Origin: Tsukamurella asaccharolytica
GTDB taxonomy: Bacteria; Actinomycetota; Actinomycetes; Mycobacteriales; Mycobacteriaceae
Assembly: GCF_007858435.1 (NCBI RefSeq)
Contig: NZ_VIGW01000006.1
Location: forward strand, 62,001 to 126,000
Direction of reading: 5' to 3'
DNA: 64,000 nucleotides
Under the pieces are notes generated by a model. It saw only the letters and a program-made list of their open reading frames with translations. It searched no databases and was not told the origin of the DNA. The position numbers and the translations under genes are program-made. This document shows, one piece after another, positions 9,784 to 63,549 of this stretch (its first letter is position 1; each line of letters opens with the position of its first letter).

Positions 9784-10794
9784 TTAGACGCGGATTCCGC
9801 GCTCCGCGAGCCAGGCCTGCGGGTCCAGCTTCGCGCCGCCGGCGCCGTGGACCTCGAAGTGCAGGTGCGGGCCGGTGGAATAGCCGTTGTTGCCCACCCA
9901 GCTGATGAGGTCGCCCGCCTTGACGGTCTGACCCGCCTGGACGTTCACGTTGTACATGTGTCCGTAGACGAGCACGGTGCCGTCCGAGAGCCGGATCTTG
10001 ATCCAGATGCCGAAGCCCGAGGCGGGGCCGGCGTCGGTGACCACGCCGTCGGCGGCCGCGAACAGCGGGGTGCCGAGCGGGGCGGCCAGGTCGAGGCCGC
10101 CGTGCATGGCGCCCCAGCGGGTGCCGAAGTTCGAGGTGAGGGTGGCGCCGTTCACGGGCGCGGTCACCTTCGGGCGCATCGAGTCGATGATGCGCTTGTC
10201 GTCCGCGTCCTTGCGGGCCTTGCCGCCGGCGAGGCCGGAGGCGAACTGCTCGGTGTCCTGCGCGGCGGGCAGGGGAGCCTGACGCCCGGCGTTGGCCTCG
10301 GGGCCCGCGGCGGGCGGCACGATCGGCTGCTGCGAGGTCGATGGGGCCTCGCTGCCGGTGGCGTTGACCACGGCGGCGCCGGCCACGCTGGCGCCCGCGG
10401 CGAGCGCGACCAGGGCGGCGCGGCCCTTGAGGGCGTGCGGGGCGGTGGGGATGCGGTGCTTGCCGCCCTTGCGGACGGGCGCCGGGAGGAGCTCGGGGGC
10501 GACCTCGGGCGAGCCGAGGAGTGCGGTGTCCTCGAGTTCGTCCGCCTCGGGCGCGTCGAGCTCGGTGTCCCCGGTGAACAGCACCTCGGGGATCATGAGG
10601 TCCTGGGTGACCTCGGAGCTGGAGGGGCGGTAGACCAGCGCGGTGTCGTCCGGCGTGTCGGCCCAGGTCTCGGAGTAGGCCTCGTCGAGGCGCTTCTCGA
10701 GCTCATCCAGCGGGATGATCGCGGTGATCGACTCTTCATCGAGGACCTGCGTGCCACCCTGCCAGCCCGCGTGGTTCTCGCGACTCCGTGTCAT
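9784..10794 (-). CDS. membrane-anchored M23 family metallopeptidase
   Basis: A 336-aa protein with a long acidic cytoplasmic N-terminus (~120 residues), one membrane helix (ALVALAAGASVAGAAVV), a linker, and a C-terminal LytM/M23 domain. Zinc ligands are visible in MHGGLDLAA and in HLHFEVH; GYSTGPHLHF is the family signature. It should cleave peptidoglycan peptide cross-bridges outside the membrane. The ATG at 10792-10794 was chosen over the upstream in-frame GTG (10824) because a GGAG lies about ten bases upstream of the ATG and nothing resembles a ribosome site before the GTG. Homologous in position to Rv0950c. Confidence 0.88.
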   Translation of the reverse strand: MTRSRENHAGWQGGTQVLDEESITAIIPLDELEKRLDEAYSETWADTPDDTALVYRPSSSEVTQDLMIPEVLFTGDTELDAPEADELEDTALLGSPEVAPELLPAPVRKGGKHRIPTAPHALKGRAALVALAAGASVAGAAVVNATGSEAPSTSQQPIVPPAAGPEANAGRQAPLPAAQDTEQFASGLAGGKARKDADDKRIIDSMRPKVTAPVNGATLTSNFGTRWGAMHGGLDLAAPLGTPLFAAADGVVTDAGPASGFGIWIKIRLSDGTVLVYGHMYNVNVQAGQTVKAGDLISWVGNNGYSTGPHLHFEVHGAGGAKLDPQAWLAERGIRV

Positions 10795-10942
10795 ATCTCG
10801 CCTACTCCAACCGTAAAACCGCACTTCGGACCACGTGGTGATCCGACGATGTCCTCATCGTGACCGCTTCGTGATCCGCGTCCCGTCGACGATAACGAAA
10901 TGATTGCGACGAGACAACCTCAAGGGGCGCGGTTCGCGCGAA

Positions 10943-10958
10943 TGTGCTCTTGGTCACA
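10943..10958. promoter_or_regulatory. candidate CRP/GlxR-type operator
   Basis: TGTGCTCTTGGTCACA matches the CRP-family consensus TGTGA-N6-TCACA with one mismatch. It lies about 150 bp upstream of the M23 peptidase start on the minus strand, with a second partial GTGATC half-site beside it. Such sites regulate wall hydrolase and resuscitation genes in mycobacteria. Assignment here is by pattern only. Confidence 0.35.
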
Positions 10959-10990
10959 ATGCGATCACAAAGACGCGGATCACGATGGCG

Positions 10991-12298
10991 TCAGTGCTGG
11001 TCGAGCCGGATCCGGTCGTCGTCGGCGTCGTAGTCGTACAACTCGGCGTACCGGCCCCAGTCGATCGCCAGCCGCATCTGGCGTTCGGCGTCCTCCGGGC
11101 CGAAGCCGCGGCGGAGCAGGTCGACGAAGAAGCCGAGCCGGACGGCGGAGTCACTCGACGCGTGCAGGGTGCGCAGCACCGTGCGGACGAGGGGTGCGCG
11201 GGACGCGGCCTGCCGCGCGAAGACCTCCTTCGCCTCCGTCAGCGGCACCGTCACGAACGTGCGGCCCTCCTCGGTGATGCTGATGTCGTTGCCGTCCACC
11301 TCGACGAAGCCCAGCATCGCCGCGGCGTCCACGAGCGGCATGATGTCGTCCAGCTCGAAGTTCAGGTCCGCCGCGAGATCGGGCAGGTCGGCATGATCGC
11401 CGTGCGCGTGGACGAGTTCGACGAGGCCGGCCAGCCCGCCGACGGTCGCGTCCGGCAGGGGCCGGCTCACGGGCGTCGCCTCGCTCGGGTCCGGGGCGTG
11501 CTGGATCTCGGCGCTGCGGCCCGTCAGGGCCTGGTACAGCTCGTCGACGATGGCTTCGAACTCGGACGACGCCCGGTCCCGCGGCCGGGCGAGCGGGATC
11601 GACGTCTCGTGCACGATGCGGCCGGGCTTGGAGCCGAGGACCACGACGCGGTCGGCCAGCAGCACCGCCTCCTCGATGTTGTGGGTGACGATGCAGACGC
11701 TGCGCGTCGGGAAGTCGTCCTGCCCCCACAGCTCGACGATCTCGTTCCGCAGGTTCTCTGCGGTCAGCACGTCCAGCGCGGAGAAGGGCTCGTCCATGAG
11801 CAGCAGGTCGGGCTCGAGTACCAGCGCGCGGGCGAAGCCGACGCGCTGGCGCATCCCGCCGGAGAGCTCGCGCGGGTAGGCCGATTCGAAGCCGTCGAGT
11901 CCGATCGTGTCGATCGCCGCGAGCGCGCGGTCCCGCCGGGCGTCGCGCTCGACGTTCCGGGCTATCAGCCCCAGCTCCACGTTGTCCTGGACGGTCAGCC
12001 AGGGCATGAGGGCGAAGGACTGGAAGATCATCGCGGTGCCGGGGTTGGGCCCGGTCAGGGCCGCACCGTCGGCCTCGACGGTGCCCGACGTCGCCGGGAT
12101 GAGCCCGGCGATGATCCGCAGGAGGGTCGACTTGCCGGAGCCCGAGCGGCCCAGCAGCGCGACGATCTCGCCCGGGCGGATGGTGAGGTCGATGTCGTCG
12201 AGCACGGTGAGGGTCTCGCCGGTGGCGCCTTCGAAGCTCTTGGTGAGGCCGGAGAGGTGGATGAGGGGCCGGTCGCCGGGACGGGTCACGGTGGTCAT
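10991..12298 (-). CDS. ABC transporter ATP-binding protein with AAA-associated C-terminal domain
   Basis: A 435-aa protein. Residues 1-250 are a NitT/TauT-type ABC ATPase: Walker A LGRSGSGKS, Q-loop FQSFALMPW, signature ELSGGMRQR, Walker B LLLMDEPFSALD, switch VTHNIEEAV. Residues ~285-430 form the winged-helix-like AAA-associated domain found on some nitrate/bicarbonate-type ATPases. It energises the permease encoded just upstream. A good AAGGAGG (12305-12311) precedes the ATG. No substrate-binding protein gene accompanies it. Transcription from the M-box leader ties it to Mg2+ status, so the usual nitrate/sulfonate label is doubtful. Confidence 0.85.
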   Translation of the reverse strand: MTTVTRPGDRPLIHLSGLTKSFEGATGETLTVLDDIDLTIRPGEIVALLGRSGSGKSTLLRIIAGLIPATSGTVEADGAALTGPNPGTAMIFQSFALMPWLTVQDNVELGLIARNVERDARRDRALAAIDTIGLDGFESAYPRELSGGMRQRVGFARALVLEPDLLLMDEPFSALDVLTAENLRNEIVELWGQDDFPTRSVCIVTHNIEEAVLLADRVVVLGSKPGRIVHETSIPLARPRDRASSEFEAIVDELYQALTGRSAEIQHAPDPSEATPVSRPLPDATVGGLAGLVELVHAHGDHADLPDLAADLNFELDDIMPLVDAAAMLGFVEVDGNDISITEEGRTFVTVPLTEAKEVFARQAASRAPLVRTVLRTLHASSDSAVRLGFFVDLLRRGFGPEDAERQMRLAIDWGRYAELYDYDADDDRIRLDQH

Positions 12299-12313
12299 GG
12301 GATTCCTCCTTGT

Positions 12314-12358
12314 AATAAGGGGTAGCGGAATAAGGGGTGCCGGAAGCAGGGGTCAGAG
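12314..12358. repeat. three 15-bp direct repeats in the permease-ATPase gap
   Basis: The plus strand reads AATAAGGGGTAGCGG, AATAAGGGGTGCCGG, then a degenerate AAGCAGGGGTCAGAG, back to back. The last unit runs into the permease stop codon. It fills the intercistronic gap and ends just before the ribosome site of the ATPase gene. It may be a slippage product or may affect coupling between the two genes. Confidence 0.55.
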
Positions 12359-14122
12359 GGAGTAGCGGCGCTCGGCCACGCGGTACAGGCGGCGCCACAG
12401 GGCGGCGTTCGTCCCGACCACGAACAAACACATGACGACGATGCCGAGCAGCAAGTGCGCGGTGTGGTCGGCGCCGGTTGCCGCGGTGGCCTGCGCGATG
12501 TAGTCGCCGAGGCCGAACGCGTGGTAGTCCTGGCCGTTGTACGAGACGACCTCGGCGACGATCGACGCGTTCCAGGCACCGCCCGCGGCGGTGATGCCGC
12601 CGGTCACGTAACCGGCGAAGACGCCGGGGAGCAGCACGTACCGCCACTTCATCAGCCGCGGCAGCCGCATGTCGTCGGCGGCCTCGAGCAGATCGCCGGG
12701 GATCGCGCTGGCCGCGGCGATCACGTTGAACAGGATGTACCACTGGGTGCCCAGCGCCATGAGCAGGATCCCGCCGAAGTTCAGTGGAATGTTCCATGCG
12801 ATGAAGACCGCGGTGACCACGGGGAACAGGAAGTTCGCGGGGAAGCTCGCGAAGATCTGGATGATCGGCTGCAGGGCTCGGCTCAGCGCCGGGTTCAGGC
12901 CGATGATCACGCCGATCGGAACCCACACGGCGGTGGCGACCAGCATCACCACGGCGACGCGCGCCATGGTCGCCAGGCCGAGCAGGAGGACGTGGCCCAC
13001 CTCGGTGAGGCCCGCGTCGCGCAGGATCACCTCGACGCAGCGGTAGATGCCGTAGCCGAGGAGGGTGAGCACGACTGCGGCGAAGACCAGGTCGCCGAGG
13101 CGCCGCCGGGCGGGTGCCACGACGGTGGCCGTCCTCGCCCGGCCGCCGAGGACGCCGAAGACGCGGTCGCAGACCACGATGACCGGCGCGAGCAGGCGCC
13201 CGGCGACGGCGCTGACGTGCGAGCGGCGCAGCAGGGTGAGCACCGCCGACTTCGGTTCGCGGCCCGTCGCGGAGTCCTCCAGCCGGAAGCGCTCCGCCCA
13301 GGCCGTGAGCGGGCTCCAGAACAGGAAGTTGACGCCGACGATCACCACGATCATCGCGAGGACGGCCCAGCCGACGCGGCCGAGGTCGCCGTCGGTGGAG
13401 GCGGACGCGACGTAGGCGCCGATGCCCGGGAGGGCGTAATCGTTTCCGGCCACCGACACGGCCTCGGAGGCGGTGAGGAAGAACCATCCGCCGCCGAAGC
13501 TCATCATCGCGTTCCAGACCAGGGGGATCATGCCGCTGGGCACGTCGAGCCGCCAGAATCGCTGCCAGCGGGACAGGCCGAGGTTCTCGGCCGCCTCGCC
13601 CAACTCGCGGGGCTGGCTGATCAGGCTCTGATAGAAGGCGAAGGTCATGTTCCAGGCCTGCGAGGTGAAGATCGCGAAGATCGCGGCGAACTCCAGGCCC
13701 AGGGTGGACCCGGGGAACAGGGCGATGAACAGCGTCACCGTGATGGAGAGGAAGCCGAGGATCGGCACCGACTGCAGCACGTCGAGCAGCGGCATGAGCA
13801 CGGCCCGCGCACGGCGCGAGCGGGCGGCGAGCGTCGCGTAGACGAACGTGAAGACCAGCGACGCCGCGAGCGCGACGAACATCCGCAGCAGGGAGCGGGC
13901 CGCGTAGTAGGGGAGTTGTGCCGGGTCCGTGTCGACGCCGGACTGGGCGTGGGTCAGGTCGACGGGGGTGTTCATGCCCTGTCCGACCCGGATCACGAGC
14001 CAGATCAGGGCGGCGGCCCCGATGACGACGAGGAGGTCGGCGGCGATGCCCGCGCCGCGGGAGCGCCGTCCGGCGCGGCCGCGCGCCGAGAGCAGGCCTC
14101 CGGCAAGGGGTGTGGTGGTCAC
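12353..14122 (-). CDS. ABC transporter permease, two fused BPD_transp_1 domains
   Basis: A 589-aa inner-membrane protein made of two tandem permease domains of the NitT/TauT/SsuC type. Each carries an EAA loop for ATPase docking (EAAENLGLSRWQRFWRLDVP near residue 190 and EAADDMRLPRLMKWRYVLLP near 480), with about six helices around each. A natural fusion removes the need for a homodimer. The GTG start at 14122 overlaps the mgtC stop (GTGA), so the two are translationally coupled. The substrate cannot be read from the sequence. Sharing a transcript with mgtC and an M-box suggests a role in Mg2+ limitation. Confidence 0.85.
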   Translation of the reverse strand: MTTTPLAGGLLSARGRAGRRSRGAGIAADLLVVIGAAALIWLVIRVGQGMNTPVDLTHAQSGVDTDPAQLPYYAARSLLRMFVALAASLVFTFVYATLAARSRRARAVLMPLLDVLQSVPILGFLSITVTLFIALFPGSTLGLEFAAIFAIFTSQAWNMTFAFYQSLISQPRELGEAAENLGLSRWQRFWRLDVPSGMIPLVWNAMMSFGGGWFFLTASEAVSVAGNDYALPGIGAYVASASTDGDLGRVGWAVLAMIVVIVGVNFLFWSPLTAWAERFRLEDSATGREPKSAVLTLLRRSHVSAVAGRLLAPVIVVCDRVFGVLGGRARTATVVAPARRRLGDLVFAAVVLTLLGYGIYRCVEVILRDAGLTEVGHVLLLGLATMARVAVVMLVATAVWVPIGVIIGLNPALSRALQPIIQIFASFPANFLFPVVTAVFIAWNIPLNFGGILLMALGTQWYILFNVIAAASAIPGDLLEAADDMRLPRLMKWRYVLLPGVFAGYVTGGITAAGGAWNASIVAEVVSYNGQDYHAFGLGDYIAQATAATGADHTAHLLLGIVVMCLFVVGTNAALWRRLYRVAERRYSL

Positions 14123-14841
14123 AGGTCAGCCTCCTCGGGCTCGGTGAGTACGTTCCAGCGCACGGCGGTGACCGACGGTTCCATGCTCAGTTGGCTGATC
14201 GCGGACTCGAGGGCCCGGTCGTCGCGGCCGTCGGCGGCCAGGGTGGCGCGCACCTCGACGAGGCCGCCGTCCACGTTGTTACTGCTGATCGACTGGAGGT
14301 GGAAGACGGTGCGGCTGAGCGCCTGCACGAGCAGGACGCGGACGTGCGCCTCGTTCTCGTCGCGGGTCACCGCGACGAACTCGTAGTGGCTCGGCGCCTC
14401 CTTACCCGTGTCCGGCGCCTTGTCGACGACGTGGCCGACCGAGCGCAGCGCCGTGTTGACGGCGATCACGACGGCGGTGCCGGCCGCGGCGGCGAAGTAC
14501 AGCCCGGATCCGGCGAGAGCGCCCACCGCGGCGGAGCACCACAGCGTTGCGGCGGTGTTGAGGCCGCGCACCGTCAGGCCGTCGCGAAGGATCACGCCGC
14601 CGCCCAGGAAGCCGATGCCGGAGACGATCTGCGCCGCGACGCGGGTGGGGTCGCCGCCCTCGAAACCGAAGGCGGACAACACCACGAACAGCGCGGAGCC
14701 CACGGAGACCAGCGCGTTGGTGCGCAGGCCCGCCATGCGCGCACGGTACTGCCGCTCGAGGCCGATCAGGGTGCCGAAACCGACGCCGGCGGCGATCCGC
14801 AGCAGGATGTCGAACTGGGTGATGGTCGAGGTGACGTGCAT
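14119..14841 (-). CDS. mgtC: MgtC/SapB family membrane protein
   Basis: A 240-aa MgtC-family protein. The N-terminal half has five hydrophobic segments with the conserved IGLERQYRARMAGLRTNALV and GIGFLGGGVILRDG motifs. The C-terminal ~85 residues form an ACT-like soluble domain. MgtC supports survival in low Mg2+ and inside macrophages, in part by inhibiting the F1Fo ATPase; it is not itself a proven Mg2+ transporter. The ATG at 14839-14841 has a GGGAGAG ribosome site, and upstream in-frame codons fall in the leader hairpins. It is the first full-length gene after the M-box riboswitch and leader ORF, and overlaps the downstream permease. Confidence 0.93.
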   Translation of the reverse strand: MHVTSTITQFDILLRIAAGVGFGTLIGLERQYRARMAGLRTNALVSVGSALFVVLSAFGFEGGDPTRVAAQIVSGIGFLGGGVILRDGLTVRGLNTAATLWCSAAVGALAGSGLYFAAAAGTAVVIAVNTALRSVGHVVDKAPDTGKEAPSHYEFVAVTRDENEAHVRVLLVQALSRTVFHLQSISSNNVDGGLVEVRATLAADGRDDRALESAISQLSMEPSVTAVRWNVLTEPEEADL

Positions 14842-14873
14842 GATTCTCTCCCTCGTCGGGACACGTCGGATCG

Positions 14874-14896
14874 CGCCGCGACGATGGATCGCGGCG
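14874..14896 (-). other. leader hairpin just upstream of mgtC
   Basis: A perfect 8-bp stem (CGCCGCGA / TCGCGGCG) with a seven-base loop lies 33 nt before the mgtC start codon. A second stem (GCGCTG...CAGCGC, 14917-14936) lies upstream of it. There is no U tract, so neither is an obvious terminator. They sit between the leader ORF stop and the mgtC ribosome site, where leader translation could remodel them. Confidence 0.5.
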
Positions 14897-14973
14897 TGAC
14901 ACTGTGTGTGTGATGAGCGCTGTCGACAGGCAGCGCGCAACCGCCGACGGTCGCGCCGGGGGTGCTGTTGTTG

Positions 14974-15057
14974 CTACCTGAAAAGGTTGGGGCTCAGCGG
15001 ATCCCGTTCGGTGATGCGGGAAGCGCCGAGCTGAATACTATGACTGTCGTCGGGCAT
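14974..15057 (-). CDS. 27-codon leader peptide of the mgtC transcript
   Basis: A small ORF (MPDDSHSIQLG...LSPNLFR) with an excellent ribosome site: TGGAGG at 15065-15070 lies seven bases before the ATG at 15055-15057. It follows the M-box and ends 132 nt before mgtC. The N-terminus is acidic and proline-bearing, and the C-terminus ends LFR. The E. coli/Salmonella MgtL peptide that senses low Mg2+ (as I recall it, starting MEPDPTP and ending KLFR) has a similar character. The resemblance may be chance. The ribosome site can pair with an upstream CCCTCCA, so its translation is plausibly controlled by the riboswitch. Existence as a translated ORF is inferred, not shown. Confidence 0.6.
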   Translation of the reverse strand: MPDDSHSIQLGASRITERDPLSPNLFR

Positions 15058-15062
15058 TGCAT

Positions 15063-15126
15063 CACCTCCATGTGGCGGGAAATCCACGCGCCGATGGAGG
15101 GAAGATGAAGATCGTACGCCCCTCCA
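15063..15126 (-). promoter_or_regulatory. M-box expression platform (anti-Shine-Dalgarno switch)
   Basis: In the RNA, TGGAGGGG (15119-15126) forms the 3' strand of the M-box closing helix and its extension. A CCCTCCA (15095-15101) follows, and then the leader-ORF ribosome site TGGAGG (15065-15070). CCCTCCA can pair with either TGGAGG copy. With Mg2+ bound, the closing helix would hold TGG and leave CCCTCCA free to block the ribosome site. Without Mg2+, the upstream pairing would expose it. This is my structural inference; no U-rich terminator is present. Confidence 0.55.
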
Positions 15127-15286
15127 CGTCAGACCTTCAGCACTTCGCGGCGTGAACCCGTACAGGTAGTACGGGAGCCAATCGGGGCGCACCCTTAAGC
15201 CGGATGCACCTGTCCTGACCCGGGGCGTCTCTCGACGTTCGGGGTCGCTGGCCTGTTTCCGCGAAGGAGCCTCAGCGAACGAATGG
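15121..15286 (-). promoter_or_regulatory. M-box (ykoK) Mg2+ riboswitch
   Basis: The minus-strand transcript carries the conserved blocks of the M-box aptamer in order: CTGAGGCTCCT near the 5' end, AGCGACCCCGAACGTCGAGA followed by GACGCC and GGGTCAGGACAG, then TTAAGGGTGC, and AAGTGCTGAAGGTCTGACG at the 3' end. The closing helix can form between CCATTCGT (15279-15286) and ACGTGG (about 15123-15128). M-boxes bind several Mg2+ ions and switch off Mg2+-homeostasis genes when Mg2+ is plentiful. The next annotated gene is mgtC, which fits. Boundaries are approximate. Confidence 0.88.
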
Positions 15287-15300
15287 CGCCTTACCGATCA

Positions 15301-15329
15301 AGCATGACACGAGGTCGCCCCGTGGGCAA
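15301..15329 (-). promoter_or_regulatory. promoter of the M-box/mgtC transcript
   Basis: On the minus strand, TTGCCC (15324-15329) and CATGCT (15301-15306) are separated by exactly 17 bp. This would start transcription near 15294, just before the M-box closing helix. It overlaps the region upstream of the divergent TetR gene. Confidence 0.55.
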
Positions 15330-15348
15330 GCCGAGTAATGTTCCCGCC

Positions 15349-15963
15349 ATGGAGGTACCGACGACCGGCCGGACCCTCGCTGCCGGGCCCGAGGCGGGGA
15401 CGCCGCGCGAGCGCGCCAAGGCGGCCCGCCGCCGCGAACTGCTCGCCGCCGCGGCGACGCTCATGGCCGAGCGCGGCTTCGCCGGCGTGCGGCTGGAGGA
15501 CATCGGCGCGGCCGTGGGGGTCTCCGGTCCGGCCATGTACCGCCACTTCGCGGGCAAGCAGGACGTGCTCGCCGCGCTGCTGGTGGAGATCTCCGAGTAC
15601 CTGTACGACGGTGGCCGCCGGGTCGCGGAGGAGCGGGCCGGGGACCCGCGGCGGGCGCTGCACGACCTCGTCGATTTCCACGTGGAATTCGCCGCCTCGG
15701 AGCCGGACCTGATTCGCGTGCAGTACCGCGACATGTGGTCGCTCGCACCGGAATCGGCGCGCCGTGTGCGCCGGCTGCAGCGGCAGTACGTGGAGGTCTG
15801 GACCGATGCACTCACCGCGCTCGGCGGCGATGCGGTGGACAACCGCGCCGTGGTGCACGCCGTCTTCGGTCTGATCAACGCCGCCCCGAGTCTGCCGGCG
15901 CTGCCGCAGCCCCGGCTCCGCGCGCTGCTGCGCGAGAAGGCGCTCGCCGCGCTGGGCGTCTGA
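15349..15963 (+). CDS. TetR/AcrR family regulator, probable regulator of the acyl-CoA catabolic operon
   Basis: A 204-aa TetR-type repressor. The N-terminal helix-turn-helix is clear (RRRELLAAAATLMAERGFAG, then LEDIGAAVGVSGPAMYRHF), and a helical ligand-binding C-terminus follows. The ATG at 15349 is preferred over the in-frame ATG at 15283, because the latter overlaps the M-box DNA. A TAATGT -10 (15336-15341) seven bases before 15349 would give a leaderless mRNA. The gene lies 118 bp upstream of, and co-directional with, the accD operon, as the TetR gene does beside the Rv2498c-Rv2506 cluster in M. tuberculosis. The effector is probably an acyl-CoA, which is inference. Confidence 0.8.
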   Translation: MEVPTTGRTLAAGPEAGTPRERAKAARRRELLAAAATLMAERGFAGVRLEDIGAAVGVSGPAMYRHFAGKQDVLAALLVEISEYLYDGGRRVAEERAGDPRRALHDLVDFHVEFAASEPDLIRVQYRDMWSLAPESARRVRRLQRQYVEVWTDALTALGGDAVDNRAVVHAVFGLINAAPSLPALPQPRLRALLREKALAALGV

Positions 15964-63476: not shown

Positions 63477-63549
63477 GGGGCTATAGCGCAGTTGGTAGCG
63501 CGCCTCGTTCGCATCGAGGAGGTCAGGGGTTCGATTCCCCTTAGCTCCA
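63477..63549 (+). tRNA. tRNA-Ala (anticodon CGC)
   Basis: A complete 73-nt cloverleaf: acceptor GGGGCTA/TAGCTCC (one G-U), D arm GCGCAGTTGGTAGCGC, anticodon stem CCTCG/CGAGG with loop TTCGCAT (anticodon CGC, reading GCG), variable loop, T arm AGGGGTTCGATTCCCCT. The CCA end is not encoded. A terminator follows. Confidence 0.97.

Follow-up and report, generated by a model that had tools for sequence, protein, structure and literature searches.

M-box (ykoK) riboswitches are described, in the text of PMC4072509 available to us, as lying almost always upstream of corA, mgtE or mgtA, and NrmT was found there by asking why an M-box preceded an Nramp gene. For M. tuberculosis, the accessible part of D'Halluin et al. 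2026 (PMC12810186) reports that the pe20 M-box controls a short upstream open reading frame (uORF) via an anti-Shine-Dalgarno (anti-SD) element and Rho; the uORF peptide is called mycobacteria-specific, and its role unclear. In Salmonella mgtQ, according to the part of PMC8092293 at hand, the ribosome is destabilised by the codons for Asp2 and Glu5, on which translation of a Mg2+ transporter depends. Here we analyse an M-box-preceded operon of Tsukamurella asaccharolytica, located in a stretch of 64,000 nucleotides (nt), referred to as the window (RefSeq assembly GCF_007858435.1, contig NZ_VIGW01000006.1, positions 62,001 to 126,000). It contains a leader ORF, mgtC and genes for a fused ATP-binding cassette (ABC) permease and its ATPase. 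We report that this ABC transporter is repeatedly linked to Mg2+ genes in other bacteria, and we think it probable that it serves Mg2+ acquisition in some form.

The Tsukamurella operon resembles the pe20 operon, M-box-uORF2 (Rv1805A)-pe20...mgtC, as presented in the available portion of PMC12810186: both have the M-box, a short ORF with a strong SD and a conserved N-terminus, complementarity among helix P1, anti-SD and SD, and mgtC. It differs in carrying an ABC permease and ATPase and no PE/PPE genes, and its leader lacks the Pro7 of mycobacterial uORF2/Rv1805A, having Ser7 instead. As for NrmT in the accessible text of PMC4072509, M-boxes precede a transporter whose family is usually credited with other substrates; NrmT, however, is an Nramp-type carrier that was tested, while the present ABC transporter is predicted from context only. 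Our literature search, covering little of the subscription literature, gave no description of an M-box-controlled ABC transporter, of an ABC Mg2+ transporter or of an AGU-serine leader. The string 'ABC' is absent from the text of PMC4072509 that we could obtain, 'ABC transporter' and 'mgtC' from the main text of the M-box regulon paper PMC3766115, and 'serine', 'AGT', 'AGU', 'mgtL' and 'ABC' from that of PMC12810186 as available.

On the minus strand of the window, a promoter-like sequence is followed by the M-box, the leader ORF, mgtC, the permease gene and the ATPase gene (Table 1). The initial annotation had placed the M-box at 15121-15286 (-), and it passed the covariance-model check: Rfam RF00380 matches 15115-15290 (-) over the full model with 111.6 bits (gathering score 44; E 4.6e-24), the single RF00380 match in the 4.12-Mb genome. 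MgtC matches PF02308 (125.3 bits) and PF21770 (89 bits), both above cut-off. The fused permease, the ATPase with an AAA-associated domain, the GTGA overlap and the short gap read from the sequence at the outset were all recovered with Pfam domains and spacings (a 4-nt overlap between the mgtC stop and the permease start; 54 nt between permease and ATPase), and so was the leader ORF, whose wider family had not been named. Among 13 genomes of the genus none has an MgtA above cut-off, so that no transporter other than the ABC pair stands under M-box control here. Two terminator-like sites were predicted in 10700-15450 against a shuffle mean of 1.2, and the one on the coding strand sits within the permease gene; judging from the sequence, co-transcription from leader to ATPase is likely. 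That this is a Mg2+-controlled operon, ABC genes included, we regard as very probable.

To see how often the permease accompanies Mg2+ genes, as proposed with the initial annotation, we used two samples: 298 genomes of the order, in which a full-length relative had 60% identity or more, and 80 named permease loci, the best 80 of 563 confirmed stretches found with a profile of ten permeases. A full-length permease is present in 10 of the 298 order genomes, and five of these ten (G000, G191, G238, G074 and G214) have a same-strand M-box just upstream; any M-box occurs in 27 of the 298. A covariance model built for the analysis was then run on 90 loci (the 10 order loci plus the 80 named ones; L033/L061 lie on one contig, as do L037/L065). 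It gave 24 M-box matches, 19 of them on the same strand within 1.2 kb 5' of the permease, and 14 of these 19 belong to the named set: Tsukamurella (L061, L062, L123), Nocardia (L069, L071, L073, L075, L079, L096), Bifidobacteriaceae (L088, L089, L090, L092) and an Anaerolineae metagenome-assembled genome (MAG) of the Chloroflexota (L130). The other five matches (L076 twice, L100, L102, and L103 at 4.3 kb) are not positioned to serve the permease. In six loci (L034, L088, L089, L090, L092 and L130) the search showed no mgtC in the interval from M-box to permease, which makes the ABC genes the nearest M-box target there.

Within the 80 loci, the ATPase adjoins the permease in 77; in two of the three without an ATPase match the sequence ends 55 nt (L119) or about 1 kb (L110) after the permease, and in the third, L113, it continues for 3.4 kb. 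The mgtC gene is present in 19 loci, immediately upstream of the permease in 15, and an MgtA-like P-type ATPase of about 880 residues in nine (rows from Amycolatopsis, Saccharopolyspora, Solihabitans, Mycolicibacterium, Mycobacterium and Microbacterium). Three of these nine were checked with TIGR01524, and all score above its cut-off of 611 bits (919-1014 bits). One or more of M-box, mgtC and mgtA are present in 27 of the 80 loci, and 13 of the 66 M-box-free loci hold mgtC or mgtA. A whole-genome Rfam search of 48 genomes, from 50 of the 80 loci (L074 left out; two loci share one genome), placed an M-box in 25, in 13 of them before the ABC genes. In a quick permease tree of 84 rows the M-box state changes at least 8 times. 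Rfam gathering scores in 20 of the 80 loci gave only M-boxes and tRNAs near the permease, and in the Bifidobacteriaceae loci without an M-box (L082, L085, L087, L111 and L115) RF00380 remained without a match when E values up to 1 were admitted. Comparison thus supports the initial suggestion, which assigned the ABC transporter to the Mg2+-starvation response (M-box in 14, mgtC in 19 and MgtA-like ATPase in nine of 80 loci, and six loci with no mgtC in between).

The Chloroflexota relative appears to represent another form of control. In L130 (5619-5948) an M-box of 130.5 bits is followed by GACAGCCCCTCGAGATCGAGGGGCTGTTTTGTTG, a 12-pair stem with a T-rich tail, and then by the permease start; the P1 3' strand and the terminator 3' arm have the 8-mer CGAGGGGC in common. 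The P1 3' strand could thus displace the terminator 3' arm, and L130 would be a transcriptional form of the same control. In Streptomyces orinoci (L076:5251-11310) two M-boxes flank the ABC pair, one of them divergent and the other followed by an Nramp gene, and both have an AGT leader of their own.

The window leader begins MPDDSHS, with early acidic residues (MPDD) and Ser at position 7; GGAGGTGATGCA stands 5' of it, and with up to 3 mismatches allowed its SD plus start has a single occurrence in the genome. Five Tsukamurella keep the SD and the first codons and not the remainder (the carboxy-terminal half). Taking as leader an ORF of 8-60 codons with an SD of six or more consensus bases, we found similar leaders behind 42 of the 48 M-box sites examined and before 10 of 13 mgtA genes without an M-box (all ten that were scanned by this criterion; of three further genes, one, L083, has a leader whose SD is weaker). 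In 30 TIGR01524-family loci of the order, a leader lies within 420 nt in four of the seven scoring 860 bits or more, and in a fifth of these seven, L163, the M-box leader of L020 lies farther upstream. Similar leaders thus occur in other actinobacterial families and before M-box-free mgtA, whereas the peptide is given as restricted to mycobacteria in the part of PMC12810186 that we could consult.

The leaders share a codon preference. In 48 distinct leaders, selected regardless of codons, AGT makes up 93 of 128 Ser codons in codons 2-10 against 13 of 129 from codon 11 to the end, and AGT triplets are distributed over the three frames as 93, 0 and 2. A smaller set of 39 leaders gave 76 of 105, compared with 30 of 910 Ser codons in 28 actinobacterial permease genes. 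The AGU codon is decoded by G-U wobble. In four related low-GC Gardnerella leaders AGT accounts for 28 of 38 Ser codons versus 22 of 180 in their permease genes, which argues that the bias is not merely a rare-codon bias. Asp or Glu within codons 2-8 is found in 50 of 53 leaders, part of which were selected by their AGT codons. An AGT leader lies within 600 nt of the operon start in 8 of 13 actinobacterial permease loci with an M-box and in 17 of 36 without (0.19 expected for the 36 from the rate elsewhere in the loci), and in one of 31 permease loci of other phyla; the AGT-leader criterion was fixed after examples had been seen and related species are counted repeatedly, so that these figures are descriptive and constitute no test. 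In L070, L091 and L112, for example, where there is no M-box and no neighbouring mgtC, the AGT leader stands directly before the permease.

Such a frame-bound choice of a single Ser codon, together with freely varying C-terminal ends, points to an element that acts while being translated, and the sequences suggest that the leader gives cis-acting, translation-based Mg2+ control. Leaders of this kind occur behind M-boxes and also where there is none; in the most far-reaching reading, given below, the M-box would be just one of the devices placed before the leader. That the leader senses Mg2+ through its codons we put forward tentatively, at somewhat below even chances. Like Salmonella MgtQ, as described in the accessible part of PMC8092293, which controls Mg2+-transporter expression via aborted translation, it is a short ORF with early acidic residues. 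By analogy, MgtQ would be the nearest mechanism for an AGU leader; no sequence relation of MgtQ or MgtL to the Tsukamurella leader was shown. Salmonella MgtL is likewise a short ORF with an acidic start and the same aborted-translation control of Mg2+ transporter expression. To our knowledge, an AGU-serine bias is not a feature of MgtQ or MgtL.

Further AGT-rich, strong-SD leaders before mgtA, mgtC or the permease, with no M-box there, were noted in L063, L064, L066-L068, L070, L072, L074, L078, L086, L091, L097, L112, L166 and L167; many of the M-box-free leaders lie outside mycobacteria. Two Streptomyces loci without an M-box match have AGT leaders as well, MDCSSPGHSCPCPR at L107:3357 (+) and MDGSSHSPGHSRPR at L120:1948 (reverse strand). 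Searching 394 genomes of the class with the pattern GGAGGTG..RTG..GGAAGTAGT gave one match against five for the reversed pattern and was uninformative. A likeness of the leader end to Salmonella MgtL (LFR) was rejected, because the carboxy-terminal part is unconserved and the other Tsukamurella leaders end earlier.

In the window the order is P1 3' strand GTGGAGGGG, CCCTCCA, GGAGGTGATG and the leader start codon. We propose that at high Mg2+ the M-box folds, as is known for the family, with helix P1 closed; CCCTCCA would then be free to mask the ribosome-binding site of the leader, the leader would remain untranslated and transcription would stop early, probably by Rho as at the M. tuberculosis pe20 M-box. 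At low Mg2+ the P1 3' strand would capture CCCTCCA, the leader would be translated and transcription would continue into mgtC, permease and ATPase. Leader codons 1-10, with their acidic residues and AGU serines, probably render translation Mg2+-sensitive, in the manner of Salmonella MgtQ. MgtC would tune cell physiology to low Mg2+, and the fused permease with two copies of the ATPase would form a type-I-fold ABC transporter working without a dedicated NitT-type binding protein, most likely as an importer of Mg2+ or a Mg2+-bearing solute. Taken as a whole, this explanation as a Mg2+-starvation operon is the one we favour, with reservations; that the transporter carries Mg2+ itself is a possibility to which we give slightly less than even weight.

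Table 1. Features of the M-box operon in the window (positions are those of the 64,000-nt stretch)
Feature	Position	Strand	Basis or remark
Candidate promoter TTGCCC-N17-CATGCT	15301..15329	(-)	Read by eye; weak consensus match
M-box (ykoK) magnesium riboswitch aptamer	15115..15290	(-)	Rfam RF00380, full model
Aptamer helix P1, 3' strand GTGGAGGGG	15119..15127	(-)	SD-like; candidate anti-anti-SD by analogy with PMC12810186 (available part)
CCCTCCA, candidate anti-SD, complementary to P1 3' strand or SD	15095..15101	(-)	Sequence, folding
Leader ORF, 27 codons, MPDDSHSIQLGASRITERDPLSPNLFR, two early AGT Ser codons	14974..15057	(-)	
mgtC, 240 amino acids (aa), PF02308 + PF21770	14119..14841	(-)	
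Fused two-domain ABC permease, 589 aa, GTG start	12353..14122	(-)	Two BPD_transp_1 matches
ABC ATPase, 435 aa, ABC_tran + C-terminal AAA_assoc_C (PF09821)	10991..12298	(-)	

The transporter family, which ranges over Actinomycetota, Cyanobacteriota, Chloroflexota and Burkholderiales, combines type I permease domains with EAA loops and an ABC ATPase, as NitT/TauT-type importers do. In Pfam and NCBIfam both proteins match ABC families and not the Mg2+ classes CorA, MgtA, MgtE and NrmT; among the NCBIfam models those for NitT/TauT systems score best, none of them reaching its cut-off. Of the solved structures, CmpBCD (bicarbonate) and NrtBCD (nitrate; PDB 9u9z and 8wm7) are nearest in sequence, and they are also among the best fold matches of the permease. 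Unlike these, the present transporter has fused permease domains, a single ATPase with AAA_assoc_C, no NitT-type binding protein that we could find, and Asp114, invariant in 41 rows, where CmpB and NrtB have Gln. FbpBC, a fused ferric importer from Thermus thermophilus (PDB 9j4r), can be aligned with the permease over 433 residues; the identity is 13%, and FbpBC belongs to a different ABC subfamily. The AAA_assoc_C region (window 11027-11383, -) appears as two winged-helix-like units in the predicted model and had no credible match among solved sequences (best E 0.2). The lack of a binding protein remarked on initially stands for the NitT type: the cognate NMT1-type solute-binding protein of NitT/TauT importers was found neither in the 80 loci (20 queries and their profile) nor in the window (tblastn, 20 queries), PF09084 and other families not having been searched. 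Four of 30 genomes have no PF13379 match at all.

Several observations weigh against a transporter dedicated to Mg2+ and against the leader switch. No M-box, mgtC or mgtA was seen in the stretch examined for 53 of the 80 loci, including all Cyanobacteriota and Pseudomonadota rows, which speaks against a Mg2+ role for the whole permease family; the family may not be Mg2+-specific throughout. In 12 of the 25 genomes with an M-box, M-boxes occur only away from the ABC genes, and G102 has four M-boxes, none by its ABC genes. Alternative Mg2+ routes exist in Tsukamurella, with CorA in all 13 genomes of the genus and MgtE in eight (window genome included), and together these can provide the base Mg2+ supply; Nramp is also present in all 13. 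The relatives of the ABC pair with established substrates are anion carriers (bicarbonate, nitrate), and in L095 a protein of another binding-protein family, SBP_bac_8, is encoded two genes upstream of the permease, only some neighbours having been scanned. On the side of the leader, six of the 48 have no AGT in codons 2-10, and five of these six belong to the Nocardia clade; the MgtA-type loci L168 and L169, the other two of the three further mgtA genes, have no leader within 420 nt (the start of L168 is uncertain); and none of the 23 TIGR01524-family loci scoring 710-775 bits has one, though they are above the model cut-off. These 23 genes encode either a different kind of pump or leaderless Mg2+ pumps.

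Equilibrium folding supports the covered SD in the window but not its release. Without the P1 3' strand, the SD has an unpaired probability of 0.00 in the window (equally low in 6 of 200 shuffled linkers), and it is covered in four of five Tsukamurella including the window (0.00-0.01) and open in L123 (0.52). For release of the SD by the P1 3' strand, 12 loci were folded with 200 shuffled linkers each and the shuffles that matched or beat the real linker were counted. In the window 96 of 200 do as well; the counts elsewhere are 5 (L032), 90 (L061), 46 (L123), 73 (L062), 141 (L034), 191 (L038), 72 (L069), 10 (L071), 36 (L096), 86 (L079) and 133 (L073). Only L032 and L071 stand out, and equilibrium folding was therefore rejected as proof of the switch; the P1/anti-SD/SD switch is kept as something we infer.

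The anion relatives raise the question whether what is carried is not Mg2+ itself but a counter-ion or another solute, akin to bicarbonate, nitrate or an organic anion, that aids survival at low Mg2+. We consider this somewhat unlikely: CmpB/NrtB and CmpD/NrtD are indeed the nearest solved relatives and the top NCBIfam models are NitT/TauT (all below their cut-offs), yet M-box targets are nearly always Mg2+ transporters (PMC4072509, in the text available), part of the family has the gene in the company of mgtA and mgtC, and the search of the 80 loci and the window for a NitT-type binding protein gave none. The last point can also be read in favour of an exporter or a regulatory membrane complex, as can the resemblance of AAA_assoc_C to two winged-helix units in the predicted model; this we regard as very unlikely. 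The 53 loci without a visible Mg2+ link would further suit ABC genes that are passengers, having joined for unrelated reasons an operon whose M-box serves mgtC. Against such passengers, which we find highly improbable, stand the M-box before the permease without mgtC in L034, L088, L089, L090, L092 and L130 (in L130 with an intrinsic terminator), the linkage with mgtA, and the AGT leaders directly before the permease in L070, L091 and L112.

For the leader, the peptide might instead be a functional small protein acting in trans, e.g. as a transporter subunit, as D'Halluin et al. propose for Rv1805A. Its N-terminal residues are conserved, and a homologue outside an M-box context is reported in the accessible part of PMC12810186, but the AGT codons are concentrated in codons 2-10, nearly all in frame 0, and the C-terminal halves are unconserved among the five Tsukamurella; we therefore hold a trans-acting peptide to be unlikely. 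Our preferred reading remains a Mg2+-starvation operon whose leader acts in cis. Its most far-reaching form, a binding-protein-free ABC Mg2+ importer coupled to an AGU/acidic leader as Mg2+ sensor across Actinomycetota, with the M-box optional, we regard as doubtful.

As to the surroundings of the operon, the promoter read by eye in the initial annotation stands in part: the 17-bp spacing is readable, while a sigma-70 scan of the region gave nothing at the scan threshold, and it is only part-conserved in four Tsukamurella relatives. A TetR-type regulator is encoded divergently at 15283-15963 (+), near the SACE_7040 model and below its cut-off; its annotated start overlaps the M-box promoter, and a later start is likely. 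Behind it lie acyl-CoA carboxylase-like ORFs, and both recur beside the operon in other Tsukamurella. An M23 peptidase gene (9784-10824, -) follows 166 nt 3' of the ATPase and is not among the recurrent permease neighbours. Besides the M-box, the window has just one feature that Rfam matches at gathering score, a tRNA gene at 63477-63549 (+).

The AGU-serine leader offers a handle on the role of the unexplained small ORF behind mycobacterial M-boxes, i.e. whether it is a codon-reading sensor or a working peptide, and it may help to locate Mg2+ genes that lack an M-box. If our reading of the transporter is true, the ABC route would be a new class of bacterial Mg2+ import beside CorA, MgtA/B, MgtE and NrmT, and a function would be assigned to a transporter family of Actinomycetota, Cyanobacteriota, Chloroflexota and Burkholderiales. 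The sequences of the relatives elsewhere suggest that this ABC transporter is an overlooked part of bacterial Mg2+ acquisition.

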